DNA of 33,534 nucleotides. It comes from Candidatus Delongbacteria bacterium. Its GTDB lineage: Bacteria; UBA4055. Both the position numbers and the translations under genes were made by a program. The notes beneath the pieces are model-generated. The model saw only the letters and a program-made list of their open reading frames with translations, ran no database searches and was not told the DNA's origin. Each line of letters begins with the position of its first letter. The stretch's first letter is position 1. This document shows positions 7,588 to 20,272 of the stretch, in pieces. The stretch is taken from NCBI GenBank assembly GCA_027858225.1, contig JAQIDB010000029.1, positions 1 through 33,534 on the forward strand, read 5' to 3'.

Positions 7588-7650
7588 TTTTTAGTAAACG
7601 ATAGCATAATATAGACCAAGGTGTTTTTAGTAAACTATTGCATAATAAAT
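7588..7650 (-). repeat. Imperfect tandem duplication (36-nt period) of the small-ORF 3' end and stop codon
   Basis: ttttagtaaactattgcataata and ttttagtaaacgatagcataata; minus strand both read YYAIVY*. Confidence 0.65.
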
Positions 7651-10830: not shown

Positions 10831-11946
10831 ATGATAGATCTTAATAGAATGTTTGCTGCTCTGATTGAAAGCGGTGGATCTGATATACATTTAAAAGTTG
10901 GGATCAAACCAATTTTTAGGGTAAATAGTGAGCTTGTTGACTGGGGCGAAGAGAGTATCAATATGGATGACATGATCACTATTGCAAACGAATTGATGGG
11001 TAAGAAAGAGAAAGAAACATTTGCAGAAAAAAAAGAAGCTGATTTTGGATTTGGTGTAAAGGGTGTAGGTCGATTTAGAGTAAATGTCTATAAACAAAGA
11101 GGAACAGTTGCAATTGCTATTAGAGCAATACCTTTTGATATAAAAACTATTGATGAATTACATTTGCCAGATGTTCTAAAAAAAATATCAATGAATAATA
11201 GAGGGCTAGTAATTGTAACAGGTACTGTTGGTTCAGGAAAATCTACAACAATTGCTGCAATGTTAGAGTATGTGAATCAAAATAAAAGAGCAAACATCAT
11301 AACAATTGAAGATCCAATCGAATTCTTGTTCAGGGATAAAATGTCAATTATCCATCAGAGAGAAGTTGGTAGTGACACAGAGTCTTATTCAGGTTCATTA
11401 AGATATTTACTTAGACAAGATCCTGATATTATAATGATCGGTGAGATTAGAGATAGTGAAAGTATGTATACTGCAATTAGAGCGGCTAACACAGGACATC
11501 TGGTTTTTACGACACTTCATACTACAGATGCTGCTCAAACAATAGGTAGAATATTATCTTTCTTCCCTGGTGATCTTCAGAATGAGATCAGAAACCTTTT
11601 ATCTGTAACTCTTCAAGCTATTATATCACAGAGATTGATCCAAACCAGAGATGGTGAAGGTCGAGTTCCAGCAACAGAGATCTTAATTATAAATGAAACA
11701 ATTAAAGAAGCAATTATTGATACTGAAAAAGCCTCAGATATAAAAATGTCTATTGAAAAAGGTGAAACTATCTATGGTATGCATACATTTGATCAAAGTG
11801 TATTTAGGCTTTATGATAAAGGTTTGATCTCCCACGATGAAGCAGTAAAAGCAGCTTCAACACCGACAGACTTTGAAAGAAGATTAAAAGGTCTTGATTC
11901 TTCAGATGGAAATAATTACGAACTAGGCGATTACGGTTCTAAGTAA
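10831..11946 (+). CDS. PilT/PilU-like twitching-motility ATPase (T2SS-E family)
   Basis: GGSDIHLKVG, VTGTVGSGKSTTIAAM (Walker A), IITIEDPIEF, LRQDPDIIMIGEIRD, TGHLVFTTLHTTDA. Confidence 0.92.
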   Translation: MIDLNRMFAALIESGGSDIHLKVGIKPIFRVNSELVDWGEESINMDDMITIANELMGKKEKETFAEKKEADFGFGVKGVGRFRVNVYKQRGTVAIAIRAIPFDIKTIDELHLPDVLKKISMNNRGLVIVTGTVGSGKSTTIAAMLEYVNQNKRANIITIEDPIEFLFRDKMSIIHQREVGSDTESYSGSLRYLLRQDPDIIMIGEIRDSESMYTAIRAANTGHLVFTTLHTTDAAQTIGRILSFFPGDLQNEIRNLLSVTLQAIISQRLIQTRDGEGRVPATEILIINETIKEAIIDTEKASDIKMSIEKGETIYGMHTFDQSVFRLYDKGLISHDEAVKAASTPTDFERRLKGLDSSDGNNYELGDYGSK

Positions 11947-11998
11947 TAACAAAACTTTGTTATTACCCAGGCGACTATGGATCAAAATAATAACAATT
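11926..11998 (+). repeat. Tandem echo (44-nt period) of the pilT-like 3' end and stop
   Basis: GGC GAT TAC GGT TCT AAG TAATAACAA (11926) and GGC GAC TAT GGA TCA AAA TAATAACAA (11970): both GDYGSK*, all five differences at third codon positions. Confidence 0.8.
11944..11965 (+). other. Perfect inverted repeat spanning the pilT-like stop codon
   Basis: TAATAACAAA-ac-TTTGTTATTA; no U-tract, so not a classical terminator. Confidence 0.55.
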
Positions 11999-12027
11999 TA
12001 AAAGATAATTATATTAGGAGCAACAAA

Positions 12028-12405
12028 ATGAACTTTCCAAAAGAACTTCTTTACACAGACGATCATGAATACTGCAGAGTTGAAGGAAATGTAGTTGTAA
12101 TAGGTGTAACTGAGTACGCTCAGGAACAATTAGGCGATATCACTTACGTAGAACTTCCTGAGATTGGTGATACTTTCAGTAAAGGTGATAGTCTTGGAGT
12201 TATCGAAGCAGTAAAAGCAGCTTCAGATATATATTCACCTGTATCTGGTGAAGTTGTAGAGATCAATGAAAACTTGGAAGATAATCCTGAACTTGTTAAT
12301 AGCGAGTGTTATGAAGGTGGATGGATATTAAAAATAAAACTTTCAGATACCTCTGAACTTGATGGATTGATGAAACCGGATGCTTACGAAACAACAATAG
12401 ATTAA
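12028..12405 (+). CDS. gcvH: Glycine cleavage system H protein
   Basis: LLYTDDHEYCRVEGNVVVIGVTEYAQEQLGDITYVELPEIG..., lipoyl-Lys region GVIEAVKAASDIYSPVSGEV; start MNFPKEL after AGGAG. Confidence 0.95.
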   Translation: MNFPKELLYTDDHEYCRVEGNVVVIGVTEYAQEQLGDITYVELPEIGDTFSKGDSLGVIEAVKAASDIYSPVSGEVVEINENLEDNPELVNSECYEGGWILKIKLSDTSELDGLMKPDAYETTID

Positions 12406-12448
12406 TTTAACTTTCGTTACAAGGCAATAATAGATTAATTTAACTTTC
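12384..12448 (+). repeat. Imperfect tandem duplication (33-nt period) of the gcvH 3' end and stop
   Basis: TTACGAAACAACAATAGATTAATTTAACTTTC and TTACAAGGCAATAATAGATTAATTTAACTTTC; the last 20 nt are identical and include the TAA stop. Confidence 0.8.
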
Positions 12449-20047: not shown

Positions 20048-20105
20048 TTTATGCCTGTAGCTAGTAATTCATACCTTGCAACTTTATGCCTGTAGCTAGT
20101 AATTC
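20048..20105. repeat. 23-nt direct repeat, 35-nt period
   Basis: tttatgcctgtagctagtaattc at 20048 and 20083, exact. Confidence 0.85.
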
Positions 20106-20214
20106 TTACTTTACTTTGACAAAAATAGTTCAATTTTGCTTTTTTAGCAAGAAAAAACTAAATGGTAATAAACTTCAAAAATAACATTCAAACATATTAA
20201 CTTAACATCAGTTT

Positions 20215-20272
20215 AAATAATAATTGACTTGAATTCATAGTTCGTATAGTTATAAATAATAATTAACTTGAA
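20215..20272. repeat. 19-nt near-exact direct repeat, 39-nt period
   Basis: aaataataattgacttgaa at 20215 and aaataataattaacttgaa at 20254 (18/19). Confidence 0.75.

Follow-up and report, generated by a model that had tools for sequence, protein, structure and literature searches.

The repeated end of a pilT gene in a Candidatus Delongbacteria genome is probably an aged short tandem duplication across a stop codon

In the window (the whole stretch of DNA that was analysed, 33,534 nt from a Candidatus Delongbacteria bacterium), the end of a PilT-family gene, together with its stop codon and the nucleotides that follow, is repeated before the next gene of the operon, gcvH. We consider this echo to be probably an old short tandem duplication across the stop codon and operon junction, which would have occurred in this lineage after the split from its same-genus relative and was most likely harmless. 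The echo is absent from the relatives that were compared, and the bacterium's own genome carries a class of short repeats with a narrow size band, an excess at stop codons over start codons and no in-gene members that shift the reading frame.

Results

The pilT end and its echo

The features of the junction are listed by their positions in the window.

10831 to 11946, plus strand: PilT/T2SSE-family ATPase gene, 371 aa (Pfam PF00437, T2SSE, E = 5.6e-45), ending in ...NNYELGDYGSK, with its stop codon at 11944-11946
11925 to 11952, plus strand: echo copy 1, in-gene (AGGCGATTACGGTTCTAAGTAATAACAA), read as GGC GAT TAC GGT TCT AAG, then TAA, then TAACAA
11943 to 11966, plus strand: perfect 10-bp inverted repeat across the pilT stop (GTAATAACAA-AACT-TTGTTATTAC)
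11953 to 11968, plus strand: 16-nt spacer between the echo copies (AACTTTGTTATTACCC)
11969 to 11996, plus strand: echo copy 2, noncoding (AGGCGACTATGGATCAAAATAATAACAA), read as GGC GAC TAT GGA TCA AAA, then TAA, then TAACAA, and joined to the native gcvH junction
12028 to 12405, plus strand: gcvH, glycine cleavage H protein, the next operon gene (Pfam GCV_H, E = 6.8e-46)

The two copies lie in the same orientation at a spacing of 44 nt and are identical at 23 of 28 nt. The description in the earlier note, of six codons, a stop and TAACAA recurring 44 nt downstream with five third-position differences, was confirmed in the sequence: the differences are GAT/GAC, TAC/TAT, GGT/GGA, TCT/TCA and AAG/AAA, all of them synonymous, and the AT-rich post-stop segment TAATAACAA is without any mismatch between the copies. 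Upstream of the core the likeness fades, an ungapped 37-nt match reaching 76%, and the codon preceding GGC is CTA in copy 1 and CCA (Pro) in copy 2. Since Leu is kept before GDY or GDF in all family relatives (LGDY/LGDF), copy 2 is unlike a maintained pilT end.

The echo consists of the 28-nt core and a weakly matching 16-nt spacer, so the copies do not form a clean direct tandem of the kind seen in most other class members, which are directly adjacent. The spacer probably represents the opening portion of the second unit in a heavily changed form, its likeness to the corresponding portion of the first being weak. Together with the stop region it also makes up the 10-bp inverted repeat; this hairpin is missing from the sister genome (G002, of the same genus) and possibly arose when a quasi-palindrome was later corrected by template switching. 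Stable RNA structure was sought over the echo region and nothing unusual was found (z = -0.76), and a search for the spacer and hairpin elsewhere in the own genome returned short AT-rich matches only, with no second copy of the spacer.

Copy 2 also contains an ATG in frame with gcvH, which would extend that gene by 17 codons (11977-12030). This is probably a coincidence, because an AGGAG ribosome-binding site precedes the ATG at 12028.

Comparison with relatives

The adjacency and order of pilT and gcvH are conserved across the family. The pilT protein is 93% identical to its orthologue in G002 and at most 84% identical to those of other genera; among broader relatives the best was 53% identical and uninformative on the junction. 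When pilT ends were compared, as the earlier note had proposed, G002 was found to carry the end once, with the gcvH ribosome-binding site soon after and no echo, and a single pilT end was also present in nine other family genomes, from which we conclude that the insert is an acquisition of this lineage. Nucleotide identity to G002 stays level along pilT, gcvH and gcvPA, at 0.73-0.88 per 100 nt, and dips only at 11942-12041 and 12342-12441, which are the positions of the pilT echo and of a second echo at the gcvH end. At the five differing sites copy 1 matches the G002 codons at four and copy 2 at one; parsimony against G002 assigns four of the five differences to copy 2.

Under one alternative, anticipated in the earlier note as a residual native tail, pilT was overwritten as far as its stop by incoming DNA of a diverged strain, and the recipient's own last codons remain as copy 2. 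The five exclusively synonymous differences and the closer match of copy 1 to G002 would fit such a replacement, and its product would resemble a known case from fungal mitochondria (Allomyces, Glomus), in which mobile endonuclease ORFs duplicate the C-terminus and a second end with many synonymous differences lies downstream (PMC3630166). The pilT echo shares with that case a synonymously different second gene end downstream of the working one; in the mitochondria, however, the two ends lie on either side of an endonuclease ORF and the working one is of foreign origin, whereas the pilT copies are separated by 16 nt with no ORF and no foreign signal. A mobile ORF of the mitochondrial type was accordingly rejected, the spacer being too small for an ORF and identity to the sister being flat. 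Against replacement in general, identity to G002 shows no step within pilT or between the end of pilT and gcvH, and the values of 93% within the genus and at most 84% outside it leave no donor outside the genus. Copy 2 has Pro where all relatives have Leu, and the other 17 stop-spanning repeats of the genome (below) and their size band would go unexplained. We regard a foreign tail as unlikely.

Short direct repeats across the genome

The own genome was scanned over about 1.24 Mb, which is about half of the draft (204 contigs, 79% complete) and includes the window, for local direct repeats with an ungapped score ≥15 and a spacing of 15-130 nt. ORFs were called by length (≥100 aa), and starts by a simple ribosome-binding-site rule. 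The class of stop-spanning repeats that the earlier note had suspected was borne out: 18 repeats contained a stop codon (those covering both a stop and a start, such as that at locus L198, being counted here), 39 lay inside ORFs, 23 were intergenic, 2 were otherwise at a gene edge and none contained a start only. The score of 15 was reached at 17 of 877 stop codons as against 1 of 877 random in-gene anchors. Extending the scan down to a spacing of 12 nt gave 22 stop-spanning and 26 intergenic repeats; those gained repeat every 13-14 nt, in several cases with a sub-unit of 7 nt, and are of a separate kind. Tandem repeats with 7-nt sub-units (e.g. GTTGACA, ACTGACC) were likewise seen near gene ends at L171:1846-1895, L115:10315-10381, L193:13212 and L105:6150, apart from the 30-39 nt class.

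Spacings of the noncoding repeats peak at 30-39 nt, a band picked after inspection of the data, with 23 repeats as against 3 at 20-29 nt and 5 at 40-49 nt. No noncoding repeat of 30-39 nt reached the threshold in 320 kb of G002 (about an eighth of that genome, in which about 6 would be expected at the own-genome rate) or in 389 kb of diverse loci. The frequency of the 30-39 nt class, counted per kb of positions that a unit could occupy, is 0.36 where the unit spans a stop, 0 where it spans a start, 0.06 in the interior of intergenic regions and 0.003 in genes; the difference is significant for stop versus intergenic (p = 8e-5) and stop versus start (p = 0.0015) and not for start versus intergenic (0.38). 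Three effects may contribute to the excess at stops: slower decay of repeats with one coding copy, tolerance at operon junctions, and an intergenic total inflated by unannotated genes.

In most members of the class the copies follow directly on one another, with a gap of 0-3 nt, and no shared motif or family relation was found among the duplicated units. At L108 and L176 the arrays run on into a third, more decayed unit. The unit at L198 spans an overlapping TAATG stop/start: in copy 1 the stop survives and the ATG has been lost, and in copy 2 the ATG survives and serves as the start of the following gene. A clean 59-nt tandem duplication (L226:8580-8697; 95% identical, with a stop codon at its end) is apparently among the younger members. 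Separately, at L158:4570-4853 the sequence CCAGCTTGGTGAGATTAAAAG is repeated at a spacing of about 65 nt; this is probably a CRISPR array, as the contig that carries it (C44 of the own genome, G000) also has Cas1.

Several further repeats lie in the window.

12384 to 12415, plus strand: gcvH-end echo copy 1, stop-spanning
12417 to 12448, plus strand: gcvH-end echo copy 2, spacing 33, 88% identical
20048 to 20112, no strand assigned: intergenic tandem duplication, spacing 35, 93% identical; the sister has a single unit
20214 to 20272, no strand assigned: intergenic direct repeat, spacing 39, 95% identical over 20 nt
7588 to 7647, no strand assigned: intergenic direct repeat, spacing 36, 92% identical over 24 nt

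The gcvH echo is absent from G002, whose gcvH-gcvPA junction lacks the length of about one unit (33 nt); in this comparison of orthologues, which covered some of the stop-spanning repeats, the sister was also short of about one unit at L198 (37 nt) and at window position 20048 (about 35 nt). With a spacing of 33 the gcvH echo falls inside the 30-39 nt band, and the pilT echo, at 44, falls just outside it, so that its place in the class rests on structure and context.

An assembly artefact, in which two strain variants were joined head to tail, was among the explanations offered in the earlier note; the draft is fragmented, and strain variants would differ mostly at synonymous sites. Such joins would be blind to location and would be expected mainly in genes, where they would shift the frame, but only three in-gene cases of 30-39 nt were found in 988 kb, with spacings of 30, 36 and 39, all multiples of three, as against 23 cases at stop-spanning and intergenic positions, which together make up about 226 kb. 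Spacing in multiples of three points to selection on real duplications, and neither the third decayed units nor the reciprocal stop/start decay at L198 resembles the product of a join. On these arguments, which concern the class and not the pilT instance itself, we consider an assembly join improbable.

The earlier note had further proposed the scar of an element that is aimed at gene 3' ends and restores the C-terminus; this would have been an integrating element, since deleted. The enrichment at stop codons over intergenic DNA and the synonymous differences between duplicated gene ends would suit such an element. The units, however, have no sequence or motif in common, and the 16-nt pilT spacer holds no element or remnant and has no other copy in the genome. 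The direct tandems, which make up most cases, leave no room for an element, and purely intergenic cases exist as well. An element scar is therefore highly improbable in our view.

Ageing of the copies and codon-position bias

When 17 stop-spanning repeats were pooled, mismatch rates at codon positions 1, 2 and 3 were 0.054, 0.077 and 0.194, and the post-stop rate was 0.168. Third positions accounted for 24 of 39 coding mismatches (0.62) with pilT included and for 19 of 34 (0.56) without it. Relative to an expectation of 0.44 for one coding copy, which is a rough assumption, the share is marginally high with pilT (p = 0.035) and compatible without it (p = 0.17). Constraint on the in-gene copy alone thus largely explains the bias. 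The third-position bias described in the earlier note stands, while its suggestion of two copies evolving under coding constraint is unnecessary: the bias, with mismatches at positions 1 and 2 less frequent than after the stop, matches one coding and one drifting copy, and copy 2 need not have been coding. Besides the 44-nt spacing and the short core with its poorly matching spacer, two observations count against the tandem reading, namely that four of the five pilT differences fall on the supposedly unconstrained copy 2 and yet all are at third positions, and that the pooled third-position fraction lies slightly above the assumed 0.44.

As a control for chance, each gene tail was also paired with the region downstream of some other gene in this genome. 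The possibility raised in the earlier note, that such repeats occur at chance frequency with no codon-position bias genome-wide, does not describe this genome: no control pairing among 17,943 reached ≥23/28 identity, as against 5 of 898 real gene ends, and the third-position share is as given above. Chance resemblance within AT-rich intergenic DNA, for which a genome of 32% GC and the AT-rich post-stop segment might speak, is thereby largely refuted and deserves almost no credence, phase and stop being preserved as well.

Related systems and enzymes

In mammalian cells, staggered breaks followed by fill-in and Ku-dependent joining give small duplications (PMC8355091). The repeats described here share with those short tandem duplications the head-to-tail copies and the lack of a foreign insert and of a common motif, but differ in their narrow 30-39 nt band, their enrichment at stop codons, the lack of a detected Ku and their absence from the scanned part of G002. 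No Ku was detected in 13 family genomes (a Bacillus subtilis control was positive; the own genome is 79% complete), and Ku-dependent joining was rejected on this ground. Duplication linked to Cas1 was also rejected, as Cas1 is present in both the own genome and G002 and its presence alone cannot explain the difference between them. A literature search on bacterial short tandem duplications at stop codons returned nothing relevant.

Discussion

Under the reading that we favour, a local segment of roughly 44-47 nt spanning the pilT stop would have been duplicated after the split from G002. Both genes would have been left intact, copy 1 completing pilT and copy 2 retaining the native link to gcvH. 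Copy 1 would thereafter have altered only synonymously, while copy 2 drifted, its first part most; a template-switch correction of a quasi-palindrome perhaps altered that first part and left the 10-bp hairpin. The tandem origin of the pilT case, whose spacing is outside the band, would make it part of a population of short tandem duplications, mostly of 30-39 nt, that are intergenic or lie across stops.

Because the units neither share a motif nor belong to one family, local duplication is favoured over insertion of an element. The most likely mechanism, and the ordinary one, is slippage or template switching. Paired-nick fill-in is an alternative that would account for a narrow size, but its known mammalian form requires Ku, of which none was detected in the 13 family genomes. 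In a specific form of this alternative, which we think quite unlikely, a lineage-specific enzymatic process would nick twice about 35 bp apart, preferring gene 3' ends or operon junctions, and Ku-free fill-in and joining would yield stop-spanning tandems; if so, these duplications would move closely packed genes apart little by little.

That the copies of a duplicated gene end differ only synonymously is weak evidence for two coding copies. The narrow size band in one genome, absent from the examined part of G002, points to a lineage change in DNA repair or replication, and the duplication shows a harmless way to pull overlapping genes apart, with one job for each copy.
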